DNA of 39,878 nucleotides from Candidatus Nanopelagicaceae bacterium (GTDB taxonomy: Bacteria > Actinomycetota > Actinomycetes > Nanopelagicales > Nanopelagicaceae), in assembly GCA_018882745.1 (NCBI GenBank), contig VFFD01000005.1:1-39878 (forward strand). The letters are read 5' to 3'. Both the position numbers and the translations under genes were made by a program. Shown here one piece after another: positions 7,739 to 34,089 of the stretch. Numbering within the stretch: the stretch's first letter is position 1; each line of letters begins with the position of its first letter. The notes beneath the pieces were generated by a model, which did no database searches, was not told where the DNA came from, and saw nothing but the letters and a program-made list of their open reading frames with translations.

Positions 7739-8863
7739 GTGATGCCAGACCGCAGATTAATCATTCATGCTGGATTCCATAAATCGGGTACTACTGCGCT
7801 GCAAGAGGCATTCGATGCACAGAGCGAAGAACTTAAGTCTGCAGGAATTATCTATCCGAATATTGGACGAAAAGCTCATCACCGAGTCGCATGGGCCTTA
7901 ACTGGGCGATCATGGGGTTGGAGCAAAAGGGGCGGAGAAAAAACTTCACGCAAATATTGGGATGAATTAGCAAAGTCGGTAAATGGCAGCAAAGAAGAAA
8001 CAATTCTCATCAGCAGTGAATTTTTCTCCGAACTCAATGGTGATGCAATTCGCACGATCTTTAGTGAAATCAAGGATAGAAAAGTAGAAGTAATCTTCAC
8101 AGTGCGCCCCTTGGTAAAGTTACTTAGCTCGTCTTACCAGCAATATCTCAAGTACGGAACCAAAGCTGATTACACAACGTGGCTTCACTCAGTTCTTGAT
8201 AATCCAGGTGAATCTAAAATAAATCCTACGTTTTGGATGCGTCATTTTCATGGGCGTGTGGTGGCTCGCTGGGTAGACGTGATCGGCGCTTCACATGTAA
8301 CAGTGATTATTGTCGATGAGTCAAAACCTGAATTTCTCTTTGACTGCATCAACGAATACCTCGGTTTGCCGAAAGGATTCATCAAAGCTCAAAAGACAGG
8401 CAGCAATCGTTCTTTAAGTATGGAAGAAATTTCACTATTGATCGAACTAAATAAGCGATTTCCAAGTGAGAGAGATTGGAATGAATACGAGATTTTCATA
8501 CGCGATGGATATATCCGTAGGCTCACCGATCATGTCCAGCCACCGAAAGATGGAGAGAAACTTCCAACACCACAATGGGCCATCGATAAAGGAAATGAAG
8601 TAGGAGCTCAGAATAGGCGAGAGCTCGTAGCCACAGGTGCAAAAATCATCGGCGACATAAGCAGTCTAGATAGCGCAAAAGTTCCCACCGGGGAACCGAT
8701 GTACCCAGAAAAGATTTCTATTGAGCTCGTTGCAGAAGCAATGTTGGGATTTGATAAGAATATTGTGAAGAGGTTTCCGATTAGATGGATGCAAGACAAC
8801 ATCACTAACCGTTACAAGAGGAAGATCCGCAACGAAATATCTAAGCTTGGAAAGAAACTTTAA
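7739..8863 (+). CDS. Sulfotransferase-like protein (PAPS-binding P-loop)
   Basis: This 374-aa protein probably transfers sulfate from PAPS to an envelope glycan or lipid. The N-terminus LIIHAGFHKSGTTALQ (residues 7-22) is the 5'-phosphosulfate-binding loop, with Lys15-Ser16-Gly17-Thr18-Thr19. A second conserved block VIFTVRPLVKLLSSSYQQYL (about 119-138) matches the 3'-phosphate-binding region, with an Arg and the Ser-Ser-Ser stretch. The substrate is unknown. It lies at the edge of a block of glycolipid or polymer genes and converges with the nucleotidyltransferase, with a 4-nt overlap. GTG 7739 is preferred on promoter spacing; ATG 7742 differs by one residue. Confidence 0.78.
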   Translation: MMPDRRLIIHAGFHKSGTTALQEAFDAQSEELKSAGIIYPNIGRKAHHRVAWALTGRSWGWSKRGGEKTSRKYWDELAKSVNGSKEETILISSEFFSELNGDAIRTIFSEIKDRKVEVIFTVRPLVKLLSSSYQQYLKYGTKADYTTWLHSVLDNPGESKINPTFWMRHFHGRVVARWVDVIGASHVTVIIVDESKPEFLFDCINEYLGLPKGFIKAQKTGSNRSLSMEEISLLIELNKRFPSERDWNEYEIFIRDGYIRRLTDHVQPPKDGEKLPTPQWAIDKGNEVGAQNRRELVATGAKIIGDISSLDSAKVPTGEPMYPEKISIELVAEAMLGFDKNIVKRFPIRWMQDNITNRYKRKIRNEISKLGKKL

Positions 8864-28473: not shown

Positions 28474-29328
28474 ATGATTTCTCCATACATCGCGCTTATG
28501 AAGTTGCGTGTGGTGGAGTTATTGCTGGTCACAACACTTCCCGCACTTTTCTTGGCCGCGGAAGGAATCCCGCCACTTGGTATAACTCTGGCAACACTTC
28601 TTGGCGGAACACTAGCTGCAGGTGCAGCAAATGCTTTTAACATGATAATTGAGAGCGATATAGACCAACTTATGGGTCGAACCTCAAAGCGTCCCATCGT
28701 CAACAATCAAGTGACAGAAAATCAGGCCCTCATTTTTGCATCTGTAATGACGATAATTTCTCTTGCGATATTCTGGTTCTTCACTAATCCGCTTGCAACT
28801 GGATTGACTGTAAGTGCTATTGCTTTCTACGTTTTTGGTTACACCGTAGGTCTTAAGCGCAGAACATCTCAAAATATTGTCTGGGGAGGAATTGCCGGCT
28901 GCCTACCAGTACTCATTGGCTGGTCAGCAGTAACCAACACACTTTCATGGACGGCTTTCTGGTTCTTTATGGTTATTTTCTTCTGGACTCCACCACACTT
29001 TTGGGCGCTCGCAATCAAATATAAAGATGATTACGAAGCAGCGGGGATTCCGATGTTGCCAGTAGTTGCCCCAATGAAGAAAGTTAGCCAACAGATGTGG
29101 TTCCACACCATAGCCATGGTGGCGGTCTCATTCCTCACTTTTTACACAGCAAACCTTCCGATTTGGCTCTATGCGATTAACGCACTACTAGCACTTGTTT
29201 TCATCTATCAGTTGGCTGGACTCAAAAAAGAACAAATTGAAAAGAGCGCAGCAAGAATTTTTAATGGATCAATAACTTACTTAAGTTTGTACTCCATGGC
29301 TCTAGTCATTGGATCCTTCATTAAGTAA
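28474..29328 (+). CDS. ctaB: Protoheme IX farnesyltransferase (heme O synthase)
   Basis: This 284-aa UbiA-family membrane enzyme farnesylates heme B to heme O for cytochrome oxidase. The first Asp-rich motif region NAFNMIIESDIDQLMGRT, followed by SKRP, is diagnostic. The second Asp region falls in AIKYKDDYEAAGIPMLPV, after FFWTPPHFWALA. About eight or nine hydrophobic helices are present. Expression is leaderless by its -10 at 28462-28467. No other cytochrome-oxidase or heme gene is in the window. The 3' end overlaps the LuxR-type paralogue by 27 nt. Confidence 0.95.
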   Translation: MISPYIALMKLRVVELLLVTTLPALFLAAEGIPPLGITLATLLGGTLAAGAANAFNMIIESDIDQLMGRTSKRPIVNNQVTENQALIFASVMTIISLAIFWFFTNPLATGLTVSAIAFYVFGYTVGLKRRTSQNIVWGGIAGCLPVLIGWSAVTNTLSWTAFWFFMVIFFWTPPHFWALAIKYKDDYEAAGIPMLPVVAPMKKVSQQMWFHTIAMVAVSFLTFYTANLPIWLYAINALLALVFIYQLAGLKKEQIEKSAARIFNGSITYLSLYSMALVIGSFIK

Positions 29329-30030
29329 CTCAGTGCGAGTTAGATCTTTACGACCATCTATGCCCAGTTTCTGATAGATGGCCATCGTTTCCTGCCGTAT
29401 CAAAGACTCCGAATATCCCATCTTGTGCGCAATAGCAATATTGGTCATACCGGACTTGATTAAATCTAAAATGAGTGATTGTCTCTCGGTAAGTTGTCGA
29501 CCAATCAAATTCTCTTTGGCTTGTGAACCTCCGCGGCGCCTAGAATTCTGACTTACATCTAATTGATGAATGTATAAGCTGAACAAAGACTTCAACATTG
29601 AATAGTAGTTTCGGAACTGTTCCTTATCAGGAGTTTGAACTTGCGTGGAGAGTGTTGCTGCAAAATTTGGAAGCAGAGGCATAAAAATAGTTGATTTCCA
29701 TTCCTCATCTCCCTCACTTACCTGCAGGCCAGCAAAATCCTTGCGATACTGAGCATCTCGACTCTTGATTATGACACTCTCGCTCTTAATTGCCTCGTTT
29801 AGAAGAGGGTTTGTCAAAAGACTAAATTCCGAATTACGGGCCAGAAAACTTTCGTCGAATCCAAAACTACTTACGTGACTTAGCTTGAAATCGCCATCTA
29901 GCCGAGCAACATAAAAGCGTGAAGGCTCTCCTGAGCTGCAGGCGTTGAGAGCTACATATTGAACAGCCGCCCCCAGGTCCTTTTCGAGCGCTAAGTAATT
30001 AGCAATGTTGCTTAAACGCATCAAATCCAT
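29302..30030 (-). CDS. Orphan LuxR-type regulator with GAF-like domain (paralogue of 4396-5184)
   Basis: This 242-aa protein repeats the layout of the regulator at 4396-5184. The N-terminal GAF-like domain has GEPSRFYVARLDGD, matching GELARVYVGRLDND. The C-terminal LuxR helix-turn-helix has LTERQSLILDLI, GYSESLIRQET and IYQKLGI, with an almost unchanged recognition helix, so the two may bind the same sites. A strong SD AAAGGAGG (30036-30043) lies 5 nt before the ATG, so it has a leader. Its promoter region, shared with the divergent response regulator, contains several inverted repeats. No cognate kinase is nearby. Confidence 0.84.
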   Translation of the reverse strand: MDLMRLSNIANYLALEKDLGAAVQYVALNACSSGEPSRFYVARLDGDFKLSHVSSFGFDESFLARNSEFSLLTNPLLNEAIKSESVIIKSRDAQYRKDFAGLQVSEGDEEWKSTIFMPLLPNFAATLSTQVQTPDKEQFRNYYSMLKSLFSLYIHQLDVSQNSRRRGGSQAKENLIGRQLTERQSLILDLIKSGMTNIAIAHKMGYSESLIRQETMAIYQKLGIDGRKDLTRTELLNEGSND

Positions 30031-30085
30031 GTAGCCCTCCTTTCAGTAGCATTTTTAAGGAATGTACACATGAAACCTTCACAAA

Positions 30086-30100
30086 ATCTCATTTTGAGAT
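30086..30100. repeat. Inverted repeat ATCTCA-TTT-TGAGAT upstream of the LuxR paralogue
   Basis: Perfect 6-bp arms with a 3-nt centre in the divergent region. It lies where a -10 would follow the TTGACT (30110-30115, minus strand), so it may be an autoregulatory operator. Confidence 0.45.
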
Positions 30101-30116
30101 GCCCGAATCAGTCAAA

Positions 30117-30145
30117 GTTAAAGTCTGCTGTATCTTTAACAGACT
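30117..30145 (+). repeat. Two overlapping, mutually exclusive inverted repeats before the response regulator
   Basis: GTTAAAG (30117-30123) pairs with CTTTAAC (30134-30140). AGTCTG (30122-30127) pairs with CAGACT (30140-30145). The arms share bases, so only one hairpin can form at a time. Confidence 0.5.
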
Positions 30146-30169
30146 CGACTGAAAAAAAGATGGAGAAAA

Positions 30170-30889
30170 GTGGCCAAAGTCAACGAGAAAAAACCGAATG
30201 CTCTTCTTATTGAAGATAATGCGGAAGATCGAATCAATATCAAGTTGCAGCTTGAAGTTATGGGGTTCTCTGTTTTCGATGTTTCTTCATCGACGGAAGC
30301 GAGAGAGATTTTTCCTATCCGTGATTACAGCCTGGCCTTGATTCATCTCGGACACGCTCCTCTTGAGAGTTTAGAAATTTGCCGACAGATTCGGGCATTA
30401 TCGACAGTTCCGATTCTTATGATCACAAAAAGAGAAGAAGTTGTTGATGAAGAATTAGCTCTTAATGCAGGCGCAGATGATTACATCACCAAACCTATTG
30501 AGCAGAGGATTTTGACTTCGCGAGTAACACAGCAATTGAAGCGTGGTGAAAGTCAGAGGGCACCTCGCCAAACTATTTTGACGTGGGAGAATCTTTCGTT
30601 AGATCTCGCAGAACACCTTTTCAAAATTGGCGATAAGGAAATTCTCCTTACAAATTCTGAATATCGCTTCTTGCAATTATTGATGGAAAACCCAGAGAGA
30701 GTTTTCTCTAAAGAACAAGTGTTGCAAGCGGTCTCATCTCTTCGAGAATCGGCGGCAGGATCGGTTGAAACTTATGCTGGCCAACTACGTGCCAAAATTA
30801 AACGCAACGGCGGACCAGACGTCATTGATGTCGTGCGAAGTGTTGGATTTAGGTTAGCAAGTAATGATGTAAGCGAGAGAGTGAGTTAG
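30170..30889 (+). CDS. OmpR/PhoB-type response regulator lacking the phosphoacceptor Asp
   Basis: This 239-aa protein has an N-terminal receiver (10-125) and a C-terminal winged-helix DNA-binding domain (about 137-232) with GDKEILLTNSEYRFLQLL and VDVVRSVGFRL. The receiver keeps the acidic pair Glu15-Asp16, the Thr in LMITKREE and the Lys in YITKP. The phosphorylation site, however, reads LALIHLGHAP, with His59 where PhoB-type proteins have Asp. It therefore probably acts without phosphotransfer or responds to another signal. No histidine kinase is adjacent. GTG 30170 has GGAG four bases upstream. It directly precedes the TasA/SipW-type cluster, its plausible target. Confidence 0.86.
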   Translation: MAKVNEKKPNALLIEDNAEDRINIKLQLEVMGFSVFDVSSSTEAREIFPIRDYSLALIHLGHAPLESLEICRQIRALSTVPILMITKREEVVDEELALNAGADDYITKPIEQRILTSRVTQQLKRGESQRAPRQTILTWENLSLDLAEHLFKIGDKEILLTNSEYRFLQLLMENPERVFSKEQVLQAVSSLRESAAGSVETYAGQLRAKIKRNGGPDVIDVVRSVGFRLASNDVSERVS

Positions 30890-30895
30890 AACGCG

Positions 30896-31009
30896 CTTCA
30901 CTTGAACCTCTTTGAAGATTGAGAAGTTTGCGAGTAGCACGCGAGTGAAGAATCGATAGCGCCCTTCAAGGTTATGCCTGGTCTGCCCGATAAGGCGAGC
31001 AGCCATAAC
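30896..31009 (+). promoter_or_regulatory. Possible structured leader or operator region of the TasA/CalY-like gene
   Basis: Within the 135-bp gap CTTCACT (30896-30902) pairs with AGTGAAG (30944-30950). GTTATG (30971-30976) pairs with CATAAC (31004-31009), with nested CTGC/GCAG (30983-30986/30999-31002). An SD-like AGAAGAG follows before ATG 31025. I could not match it to a known riboswitch. Confidence 0.3.
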
Positions 31010-31024
31010 TAGAAGAGAGCATTC

Positions 31025-31678
31025 ATGATTAAAAGTACTTCCGCAAAGCGCTCTTGGCGTCCATTCGCAGGGGCAGCAATCATCATCTCCGTTGCCGCCA
31101 TCGCCGGGCAAAGCGTTCTCGCATCACTCAATGCAACAGCGTTTAATACAACAGCACAAAATATAAACGCAGGAACATTGAAATTAGATTTAGCAAATTC
31201 AGGAAATGGTTTTGGTGCAAGCATTTCAAACATAGTTCCAGGCGATGTAGTTAATCGATATGTGACGCTCACAAACTCTGGAACTCTCAATGGAATTGGC
31301 CTCACTTTAAAAACGTCTCAGACGGGAACAGCGTCTTTAATTACTGATGGCACAGGCGGCGTTACAACAAAGGCTTTAAAGTTAACTGTTACAAGCTGTA
31401 GCGTCGCTTGGAATACAAGTACAGGCGCATGCACAGGTACAACAGCAACGGAGCTCAATTCGACAGTCATTGGATCATTGACGTCGGCGACACCTTTGAC
31501 AAATGGCACAATGTCATCAAGTGCAGTGAAGTATCTTCAAATGAAAATTGAACTTCCTGATCAAAATGAAACAACCATCAACGGTGCACTTCCATCCAAC
31601 ACCGTACAAGGTGGAGCAGTCGATGTGACCTACACATTTGATCTTGCTCAACGCGTAGCAACCATCACTAATAGCTAA
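31025..31678 (+). CDS. TasA/CalY-like fibre protein with SipW-type signal peptide
   Basis: This 217-aa secreted protein starts with a basic N-terminus and a hydrophobic stretch (AGAAIIISVAAIAG). The camelysin/TasA entry segment follows: QSVLASLNATAFNTT, then INAGTLKLDL. TasA-family proteins are cleaved by SipW and assemble into extracellular fibres in biofilms. The rest is Thr/Ser/Gly-rich beta sequence (VPGDVVNRYVTLTNSGTLNG is the usual strand after the AGTL motif), with one cysteine pair (SCSVAWNTSTGACTG). The dedicated SipW-like peptidase is two genes downstream. Fibre formation is inferred from family and context. Confidence 0.8.
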   Translation: MIKSTSAKRSWRPFAGAAIIISVAAIAGQSVLASLNATAFNTTAQNINAGTLKLDLANSGNGFGASISNIVPGDVVNRYVTLTNSGTLNGIGLTLKTSQTGTASLITDGTGGVTTKALKLTVTSCSVAWNTSTGACTGTTATELNSTVIGSLTSATPLTNGTMSSSAVKYLQMKIELPDQNETTINGALPSNTVQGGAVDVTYTFDLAQRVATITNS

Positions 31679-31690
31679 AAGTAACCCGTA

Positions 31691-31715
31691 GGGGGAGAGC
31701 TCATCGCTCCCTCTC
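31691..31715 (+). other. Intercistronic hairpin after the TasA-like gene
   Basis: GGGGGAGAGC and GCTCCCTCTC form a roughly 10-bp stem, with one mismatch and two G-T pairs, around TCATC. No T-run follows. It could stabilise the upstream message so the major subunit is made in excess. Confidence 0.4.
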
Positions 31716-31734
31716 ACTCATCCAGGGGGTAGAA

Positions 31735-32277
31735 ATGAAGAGAATTTTCGCGCTAGTACTGGCTATAGCAACCTTTACATCTTTGCCGGCTTCTGCAGGT
31801 CAATCAGCTCGTGCTGTTAAGTCATCAAGCACATCCACTGCAACTTGGGCAGTCAGTGCAATCGGGCAAAGTCAAATAATTACTTATCAGCCCTACTCGC
31901 TTACCTGGGTCGTGACAAGCGGTGTGGCATATGACTATTTTGCACTGAGGAATATTGGTAGTGTACCAATTAGCAATTTCTTTGTTGCTATCAACAAAAT
32001 ACGGTTGAGTGGCAATTCAAATCCGAATGAGATTTTTTTCGAAAGATGTGTCGGCGGAATTTGGAGCGTCTCAACTAATCAATGCTCAGGAACCGTCGCT
32101 CTTATTGCTAGCGCTTCTGATGCTTCCTTCGTTTTTTCAGGAATCAACTTGAGTATCGGAGGAGAGATTTCAATGCGTGCTCGTACACAGGCTAGTAATA
32201 GAAATAATTTTTCTACGACGCTAACAACCTACGTATCGCGACAAGATATACGTGGTCAACAGGTCACTAATTCATGA
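31735..32277 (+). CDS. Secreted protein of the TasA/SipW-type cluster, possible minor subunit
   Basis: This 180-aa protein has a classical Sec signal peptide (1-22, SLPASA-GQ) and a beta-rich body. YFALRNIGSVPISNFFVAI resembles the strand of its neighbour (NRYVTLTNSGTLNGIGL), suggesting a related sandwich fold; this is my visual comparison. Cysteines in ERCVGGIWSVSTNQCSG may pair. I do not recognise a named family. GGGGG (31724-31728) serves as an SD 6 nt before the ATG. The stop overlaps the signal-peptidase start by 4 nt (ATGA), so both are coexpressed. It could be an anchor, tip or accessory subunit. Confidence 0.65.
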   Translation: MKRIFALVLAIATFTSLPASAGQSARAVKSSSTSTATWAVSAIGQSQIITYQPYSLTWVVTSGVAYDYFALRNIGSVPISNFFVAINKIRLSGNSNPNEIFFERCVGGIWSVSTNQCSGTVALIASASDASFVFSGINLSIGGEISMRARTQASNRNNFSTTLTTYVSRQDIRGQQVTNS

Positions 32278-32759
32278 GAGTTACAAGAATCATCAGGGAT
32301 ATCTTTTTGATTGCTACGGCGTTTCTAACTCTCGTATTGGCAGTATTTACCATTTATTGGCAGTCGAGTTTTCTTACAATCACGTCGAGAAGTATGGAAC
32401 CTACAATTAAGGCTGGAGATATGGTTGTTACCAAACAAATCTCCACTAAAGAGATAAAAGTCAGAGATGTAATAGTGCTGCCATTGCCTGATGTTGAGGG
32501 GCTGCGATTTTCACATCGAGTTGTCAGTGTAAGGAATCAAGCAGACGATGTTGTTGTAAAAACCAAGGGAGATGGAAACCCGAATCCGGATTCGTGGGAG
32601 TTGCTCATCGAAGGAGAGGAAGTCCCGAAAGTGATGGCAGTGATTCCAACCGCACCGATTCTCAATGGGCCCATAGAGAGGAAATGGATCTACTACGGAC
32701 TACTTTATGGAGGTGCAATTCTCGGTCTCTATGGTTCCTGGCGTTTACTAAAGAGGTAA
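32274..32759 (+). CDS. SipW-type signal peptidase I (S26B, Ser-His)
   Basis: This 161-aa membrane peptidase has an N-terminal helix (about 10-30) and a C-terminal helix (about 138-156). The catalytic Ser40 lies in SRSMEPTIKAGDMV. The second catalytic residue is His81 (FSHRVVSV) rather than the Lys of ordinary bacterial LepB, which defines the ER/SipW-like type. The KTKGDGNPNPD segment is the conserved box E region. Such enzymes process TasA/CalY-type precursors; with a TasA-like gene two positions upstream, the substrate assignment is strong by context. The start overlaps the preceding stop. Confidence 0.9.
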   Translation: MRVTRIIRDIFLIATAFLTLVLAVFTIYWQSSFLTITSRSMEPTIKAGDMVVTKQISTKEIKVRDVIVLPLPDVEGLRFSHRVVSVRNQADDVVVKTKGDGNPNPDSWELLIEGEEVPKVMAVIPTAPILNGPIERKWIYYGLLYGGAILGLYGSWRLLKR

Positions 32760-32774
32760 ATCACAGTTTTGGGT

Positions 32775-32827
32775 GGGGCTAATTTCCGACACCTCACCTC
32801 ATTTAAAGGAGATTTACAGGAAGCCCC
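32775..32827 (+). promoter_or_regulatory. Long stem structure between the sipW-type gene and the NlpC/P60 gene
   Basis: GGGGC (32775-32779) pairs with GCCCC (32823-32827), and after a TAAT bulge TTCC (32784-32787) pairs with GGAA (32819-32822). The enclosed 31 nt contain a further CTC/GAG stem. TTTATCCTTTT follows. It could be a terminator for the fibre operon or a regulatory leader for the hydrolase gene. Confidence 0.35.
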
Positions 32828-32877
32828 TTTATCCTTTTCATTAGTAACTGACCCCCAATTCCCCAGGGAGCCATGAA

Positions 32878-34089
32878 TTGAGATCTAAGCGAGTTCGCCT
32901 TCTAGCGCTCAGCCTTTCCTCTTTATTAGTGCTCTCGATAACTCCTGCGCTCGCAAATCCTCCTAAGGCGCCCACCATCGCCCAGATCGAAGCAGCAAAG
33001 AAGGCAGAAGCAGAGAAGAAAAAAGCGGCTAATGCTGCTGCCGCCAAATTAAATAAAGCTAACCTCACTCTTCGTCAGTTGACCGCAGTCGCAAATGCAG
33101 CGCGAGCAAAATATGAAGCGGCCAAGCGAGAACTTGCTCTTGCGGTAAAAGAAGCAAACGCTGCAACGGCTGCATATAACGTCGCTGTCTCTGAAGTAAA
33201 GGCGGCTCATGATGCAATTGGTCGTCTTGCTCTCAATGCTTACATCATGGGCGGCGGTTTTACAGATTTTGATTCGATCCTCCACTCTGATGGCCCTCAA
33301 GACTTAATGGACCGTCTATCGACTCTTGATACCTTGGGAGATAAGAACACCCAAGCTCTCTTTAGATTTAAGGCCGCAGAAGTAGTTGCAAAGGAAGCAA
33401 AGAAAGTTGCAGACGCTGCAAAAGCTGCACAAGAAGTTGCGACAAAGAAAGTAGAAGCAACAAAAATTGAAGCTGATGCGGCCCGCAATGCGCAACAAAA
33501 AGAAGTAGATAAGTTACAGAAGATTCAAGATCAAGTCTTGAGAGAACTAAATGCGGCACGTTCGAAACGAGTAACTCTTGAGCAGCAACGCCAGCTTGCG
33601 TTATTGGAAGAAGCAAATGCAAGCATCGCAAATAACACTGCAATTTATACAAGAGTTTGGCCAGATATTGGTTTCAAAGGTCGCTCAACTTCACGTTCAA
33701 CTCCCGAAATGCGCGCTAAAGCTGTGGAGTTTGCCAAGAAACAAGTATTGGCACGCAAGCCTTATATCTGGGGCGATGAGGGTCCGAACGCATTTGATTG
33801 TTCTGGCTTGGTTTATGCGGCATATCGCTCTGCTGGATTGGGCTGGCCAAACTGGGATCGCCTCAACTCTTCGTTGTATTTCAGCTACACGAAACATGTG
33901 CCCATTAGCCAACTTCAACCTGGCGACTTACTCTTCTATTCATATAAGGGGACTGTGAATTCAATCCATCACATCACAATTTATGCTGGAAACGGGATGA
34001 TGTGGGAAGCGAACTCCAAAGGTAAAGGACTGCTCTTTTCGAATATCTACAGCATCAAAGGCTTGATGCCGTATGGAGGTCGAGTCTAG
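32878..34089 (+). CDS. Secreted NlpC/P60 peptidoglycan hydrolase with coiled coil (RipA-like)
   Basis: This 403-aa cell-wall endopeptidase probably cleaves stem peptides during division. It has a signal peptide (1-26), an Ala/Lys/Glu-rich coiled coil (about 32-250) and a C-terminal NlpC/P60 domain. The catalytic Cys308 is in FDCSGLVY, His365 in HHITIYAG, and the third residue is probably Asn379 in WEAN. The coiled coil resembles the regulatory N-terminal domain of RipA/CwlO types. The start is TTG 32878 with SD GGGAG (32866-32870) 7 nt upstream. An ATG at 32873 is out of frame and stops after two codons (ATGAATTGA). Confidence 0.9.
   Translation: MRSKRVRLLALSLSSLLVLSITPALANPPKAPTIAQIEAAKKAEAEKKKAANAAAAKLNKANLTLRQLTAVANAARAKYEAAKRELALAVKEANAATAAYNVAVSEVKAAHDAIGRLALNAYIMGGGFTDFDSILHSDGPQDLMDRLSTLDTLGDKNTQALFRFKAAEVVAKEAKKVADAAKAAQEVATKKVEATKIEADAARNAQQKEVDKLQKIQDQVLRELNAARSKRVTLEQQRQLALLEEANASIANNTAIYTRVWPDIGFKGRSTSRSTPEMRAKAVEFAKKQVLARKPYIWGDEGPNAFDCSGLVYAAYRSAGLGWPNWDRLNSSLYFSYTKHVPISQLQPGDLLFYSYKGTVNSIHHITIYAGNGMMWEANSKGKGLLFSNIYSIKGLMPYGGRV

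Follow-up and report, generated by a model that had tools for sequence, protein, structure and literature searches.

TasA/SipW fibres are best studied in Bacillus biofilms. TasA fibres assemble by a donor-strand mechanism (PMC9674648), TapA serves as a minor subunit or initiator, and the most conserved residues of camelysins sit in the protomer interface (PMC10151520). In Bacillus subtilis TasA, cleavage by LepB is blocked by a bulky Trp at signal-site position P2 (PMC10269814). The sipW-tasA/capP/calY locus of Bacillus cereus yields sortase-independent TasA/CalY heterofilaments (PMC13082335), and the archaeal bundling pili of Pyrobaculum calidifontis (7ueg) are TasA-like donor-strand filaments, as cited in PMC9674648. 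A literature search for work on TasA or camelysin in Actinobacteria, Nanopelagicales included, found nothing relevant.

A TasA-like protein, its paralog X and a SipW-like peptidase

The window analyzed here, that is, the whole 39.9-kb stretch of DNA, is one of the 70 contigs of a 1.22-Mb metagenome assembly of a Nanopelagicaceae bacterium. It contains the following features:

29302..30030, minus strand: LuxR-type (GerE) DNA-binding protein (PF00196, 32.4 bits), divergent from the response regulator
30112..30124, plus strand: TCAAAGTTAAAGT element, ahead of the regulator gene (two-genome alignment and upstream scan)
30170..30889, plus strand: OmpR-type response regulator with a degenerate receiver (GTG start; PF00072 and PF00486)
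30960..31024, plus strand: stem-loop in the 5' untranslated leader of the tasA-like gene (RNA folding z-scores)
31025..31678, plus strand: tasA-like gene, candidate major fibre subunit (217 aa; PF12389; TasA-fold model)
31735..32277, plus strand: X, the second secreted protein, a beta-sandwich (180 aa; profile homology to TasA)
32274..32759, plus strand: sipW-like gene, Ser-His type membrane signal peptidase I (161 aa; TIGR02228)

All genes named in the initial annotation are present, with the LuxR-type gene falling outside the interval 30170-32759 that it covered. The regulator, tasA-like, X and peptidase genes are codirectional, and the LuxR-type gene points the opposite way. Positions 31025-32759 form a tight operon in the order TasA-X-SipW, in which the start codon of the sipW-like gene overlaps the end of X by 4 bp. 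The upstream flank contains ctaB and a beta-propeller-like gene, and the downstream flank contains NlpC/P60, tilS, hpt and ftsH genes (names from translations). Promoter and terminator scans gave signals no better than chance.

The tasA-like protein scores 34.7 bits with PF12389 (camelysin/TasA; cut-off 22.5), and the tasA-like gene is the only PF12389 match in the host genome. Its score with the NCBIfam TasA equivalog NF046066 is far under the cut-off (19.4 vs 450 bits), so that the protein belongs to the family without being a TasA orthologue. A profile built from 36 homologs matches the PDB TasA entries 5of1/8aur (E 5e-4 and 6e-4), aligning with the N-terminal strand-PGD segment and the C-terminal strand of TasA. 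In a Foldseek search with the AlphaFold model (pTM 0.72, mean pLDDT 77), the TasA fibre 8aur_A ranks first among solved structures (E 7.8e-7, probability 1.00, TM 0.53/0.50), and the TasA monomers 5of2 and 5of1 occupy ranks 2, 4 and 5; the model thus has the jelly-roll/Ig-like fold of TasA. Structure prediction, a check proposed along with the original claim of a TasA/CalY-like protein, accordingly returned the TasA fold, not an unrelated one, and the claim holds for both sequence and fold. The conserved residues in the alignment of the 36 homologs cluster in the N-terminal strand and the PGD segment (A33, L35, A37, N41, P72, G73, D74); in the monomer, the N-terminal strand is weakly modelled (residues 37-46, pLDDT <50). 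The protein contains the invariant Cys125/Cys136 and a C-terminal TNS.

Protein X has no Pfam or NCBIfam match and, in particular, none to the TapA (YqxM) family up to E 0.1 in these databases. Comparison of a profile of 19 X homologs from the same operon type with the TasA-like profile yielded an hhalign probability of 96.9 (E 1.4e-10), and a Cys pair is invariant in both protein families, in a common context (C-x3/4-W, then C a few residues later). Judging by sequence, we take X to be a short and divergent paralog of TasA. Its model folds as a beta-sandwich (pTM 0.71), for which the structure search retrieved, amid many unrelated sandwiches, 8aur_A (E 6e-3) and 7ueg, the archaeal bundling pilus (0.011); with the model alone, no PDB match fell below E 1e-3. 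The signal peptide of X looks ordinary (..PASAG). The second secreted beta protein of the initial annotation is, then, present and is a TasA paralog by profile comparison; by analogy, we propose that it is likely a minor subunit or initiator. A C-terminal TNS is found in most TasA-like and X proteins (window 31667-31675 and 32266-32274; homologs in L036-L105).

The signal peptide of the TasA-like protein is of the SipW type, with a predicted cut after A33 (VLA↓SLNATAF). Among the aligned TasA-like homologs, the site reads V-(F/W/Y/L)-A↓x-L, with Ala at P1 and Leu at P2' in 36 of 36, and F, W or Y at P2 in 30 of the 35 rows with a residue; P2 of the window protein is Leu. By this pattern, the site fits SipW substrates. 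The sipW-like protein exceeds the TIGR02228 cut-off (70.1 vs 51.85 bits) and falls under that of NF046067, SipW of Bacilli (46.5 vs 190 bits). S40, H81 and D100 are invariant across nine homologs, and the catalytic pair Ser40/His81 is Ser-His, not Ser-Lys, that is, of the archaeal/ER/SipW class, with SEC11A/C as the PDB relatives; the prediction of a Ser-His signal peptidase was therefore correct. TIGR04088-04090, which we take to be SipW-cognate families, were not among the matches of the NCBIfam searches. Given that the host genome also encodes a separate, ordinary LepB-like enzyme (contig C7), the SipW-like enzyme is an extra peptidase.

Linkage, spread and regulators of the operon

A TasA-like gene was detected in 24 of the 151 family genomes. 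Of these 24 genomes, 22 have a strong SipW-like match (E <1e-30), as do 2 of the 127 family genomes without TasA (Fisher p 5e-22, not corrected for relatedness); the latter number rises to 6 of 127 if the threshold is relaxed to 1e-15. The two genes adjoin each other in all 17 family genomes inspected, the host and 16 others. Thus, in the neighbourhood comparison suggested for the cluster, the peptidase does co-occur with the secreted genes and is linked to them at every family locus inspected; with the arrangement recurring in relatives and TasA and SipW co-occurring across the 151 genomes, the cluster is more than a chance assembly. By linkage and co-occurrence, the SipW-like enzyme counts as the dedicated partner of the TasA-like substrates.

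Two gene orders occur. TasA-X-SipW is found in the window, its three nearest relatives, L063-L066 and Pseudonocardiaceae, and is common to Actinokineospora, Amycolatopsis, Umezawaea and others, whereas SipW-TasA-X is found in most of the family, Arthrobacter and some Frankiales. In the tree, all rows with the TasA-X-SipW order form one group (15 rows, support 96/82), and hence the window operon is closer to the operons of Pseudonocardiaceae/Frankiaceae than to those of most of its own family. PF12389 was detected in 50 of the 396 sampled Actinomycetota genomes, so that an actinobacterial host is unexceptional; of the surprise voiced in the initial annotation, the part that stands concerns the 1.22-Mb planktonic lineage, which is noteworthy. 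Several loci have a different make-up. L040 (G021 contig C11) is unusually expanded: in this one locus, an Asp-less regulator is accompanied by six TasA-like genes and five SipW-like peptidases. In L039, L041, L043, L045 and L048, SipW-TasA-X is divergent from a module of a single-domain receiver, a histidine kinase and an OmpR regulator, often with a small lipoprotein-like gene.

The receiver alignment shows that the phospho-acceptor Asp of the window regulator is replaced with His, as it is in L055 and nine further relatives; without the conserved Asp, the protein is not a phosphorylatable OmpR-type response regulator. This Asp-to-His orphan OmpR-type subfamily (window 30170-30889; L180-L187, L052, L055) is strongly conserved across the family. 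It is represented in 10 sampled family genomes, with His in all, and most of its members are located apart from the TasA operon, often adjoining other secreted-protein genes. TasA is present in 7 of the 10 genomes with the Asp-less regulator vs 17 of the 141 others (Fisher p about 1e-4, relatedness ignored). Among the regulators beside TasA operons, the Asp is retained in 20 of the 20 that have a histidine kinase within the retrieved stretch and missing from six of the seven without one (p 2e-5, with related rows and some short contigs). This pattern suggests that, in the lineage of the window, control no longer runs via phosphorylation by a neighbouring kinase, and it is plausible that the Asp-less neighbour controls the fibre operon without phosphorylation.

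The claim that the cluster has its own regulator, in its strict form of a regulator and LuxR gene making up a module dedicated to the fibre operon, seems to us rather doubtful, even though it has points in its favour. The window and L055 both have the two genes adjacent, the regulator is 87% identical to the L055 copy, and its subfamily overlaps with TasA in the seven genomes counted above. However, in G046, G056, G074, G083 and G089, the regulator homologs are on contigs other than those with the TasA genes, back to back with a LuxR gene in the first three; G039, G055 and G078 have the regulator without TasA; and the co-occurrence counts ignore relatedness. As for the LuxR gene, G052 has it at this site in the absence of the cluster, and the genome contains several paralogs of it. 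What stands of the claim is an adjacent, atypical OmpR-type regulator that co-occurs with TasA; what does not is its exclusive attachment to the fibre genes. A functional tie between the regulator and the fibre genes is thus possible, with the gene not physically dedicated, and the LuxR-type gene is probably a syntenic neighbour, not a part of the fibre system.

Two nucleic acid elements might contribute to control. TCAAAGTTAAAGT (30112..30124), identical in the nearest relative and with a single exact copy in the window, is a possible tandem operator. The tasA-like leader folds better than shuffled sequences (z -3.5 in the window and -4.0, -4.7 and -1.9 in three relatives), and its stem-loop partly covers the ribosome-binding region; the consensus hairpin is small, with two compensated pairs among four sequences, and has no Rfam match. 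On this thin evidence, the leader may control translation or stability of the tasA-like mRNA. In L057, a very strong hairpin lies between the TasA-like gene and X (8630-8700, z -4.4), and it is absent in the window (z 0.07).

Proposed fibre assembly and accessory status

The cluster is best read as an accessory surface-fibre operon of the TasA type, sortase-independent and assembled by donor strands, with X as a paralog subunit and a dedicated SipW-like peptidase, and we consider this reading probable. It draws on gene identity, TasA fold and homology, homology of X to TasA, peptidase class, linkage, co-occurrence and the signal-site pattern, all computed here, and from these we infer cleavage, donor-strand polymerisation, the role of X and the use in adhesion or cohesion. 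The TasA-like protein and X would exit through Sec, and the membrane-bound SipW-like peptidase would trim the former at V-(bulky/aromatic)-A↓x-L, which belongs to a class of sites poorly handled by the ordinary signal peptidase. The freed N-terminal segment would then serve as the donor strand completing the beta-sandwich of the next subunit, resulting in a fibre that forms independently of sortase. X, produced together with the peptidase, would act like TapA or the second camelysin of Bacillus cereus, and the fibre would be used in cohesion or attachment. The fibre cluster proposed in the initial annotation is in this way upheld in sequences and models, by a TasA-like subunit, the paralog X and a linked SipW-type peptidase. 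In a bolder version, a three-gene operon spread across Actinomycetota would allow a streamlined actinobacterium of the freshwater plankton to assemble TasA-X heterofilaments that bear disulphides, X would represent a second fibre subunit family so far unrecognised, and in this lineage a phosphorylation-independent pseudo-receiver regulator would have taken the place of the kinase-controlled one seen with other copies. As a whole, this version is speculative and somewhat unlikely.

Alternatively, the secreted pair could be TasA-fold monomers or a coat, for instance, an adhesin or a camelysin-like enzyme, instead of donor-strand fibres. The family is broad, the camelysin name records a claimed metallopeptidase activity, the donor strand is unresolved in the TasA-like model, and CalY of B. 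cereus can also serve as a surface adhesin (PMC13082335). However, the TasA-like protein contains neither an HExxH motif nor any His at all, its conserved residues concentrate in the N-terminal strand and PGD segment, and the most conserved camelysin residues are placed in the protomer interface (PMC10151520), so that we regard this alternative as unlikely.

The donor-strand fibre operon, as the preferred reading, is accessory in the genus. By comparison of the flanks, it is an insertion between ctaB and the NlpC/P60 gene, which adjoin each other, about 100 bp apart, in many genus members. LuxR-RR-TasA-X-SipW is also found between these two genes in G518 (the L055 contig), LuxR is beside NlpC/P60 in G052, with the fibre genes absent, three other genes occupy the site in G017, and G074 has the fibre operon at a different genomic place. 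The junction (window 28474-34089; L149-L159) is a variable site in the genus that is either empty or occupied by the fibre operon, by FMN-transferase/ferric-reductase-like genes, or by LuxR together with a dioxygenase-like gene. The operon is missing from most genus members and has decayed in G062, and is therefore dispensable. The remnant in that genome of the same genus (contig C7; L188, about 195-812) has lost RR and TasA, and consists of SipW adjoining the C-terminal 41 residues of X, plus a LuxR fragment; G062 is one of the exceptions to the co-occurrence of TasA and SipW. Between the window and L055, synonymous sites are saturated, too far for a dN/dS estimate. Viral contigs searched for the TasA-like gene contained no relative, and hence there is no sign of a phage origin. 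The patchy occurrence of the cluster in the genus, the 70-contig metagenome assembly and the G062 remnant might suggest contamination, or an island in decay that is not expressed. This is highly improbable, because the cluster lies inside the 39.9-kb contig with ctaB and NlpC/P60 flanks ~74-89% identical to the genus copies, G518 carries the same insertion at the same site, and every reading frame is intact.

Relation to known systems

The present analysis extends the TasA/SipW fibre system, which is understood from experiments, to abundant freshwater actinobacteria and, among culturable groups, to Pseudonocardiaceae and Arthrobacter. It assigns to protein X, which lacks annotation, a role that can be tested. 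It also makes one ask what leads an open-water cell with 1.2 Mb of DNA to keep a fibre for cohesion or adhesion.

Compared with tapA-sipW-tasA of B. subtilis, the window operon likewise encodes a TasA-fold secreted protein and a dedicated Ser-His signal peptidase, the gene for an accessory secreted protein overlaps the sipW start, and the residue at P2 of the signal site is bulky. Unlike in B. subtilis, the gene order is different, X is a TasA paralog with a sequence that is not TapA-like, the Cys pair and the TNS C-terminus are conserved in the window proteins, the TasA-like protein scores under the equivalog cut-off, and no SinR-type control was seen in the window. The B. cereus locus sipW-tasA/capP/calY is alike in combining two TasA-family proteins with one SipW, but no CapP homolog was identified in the window, and X is short and missed by all TasA/camelysin models. 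The likeness of X to the archaeal bundling pili is distant and structural: the X model matches 7ueg weakly, and no sequence match was found. The actinobacterial TasA-X-SipW operons of Actinokineospora, Actinosynnema, Amycolatopsis, Umezawaea and Prauserella share the gene order and the tree group, and all three genes are homologous. There, a phosphorylatable OmpR regulator follows, with a histidine kinase nearby, whereas in the window the regulator lies upstream, lacks the Asp and has no kinase. The fibre system itself is thus already known, and the newer elements are the unrecognised paralog family X and the Asp-less regulator.
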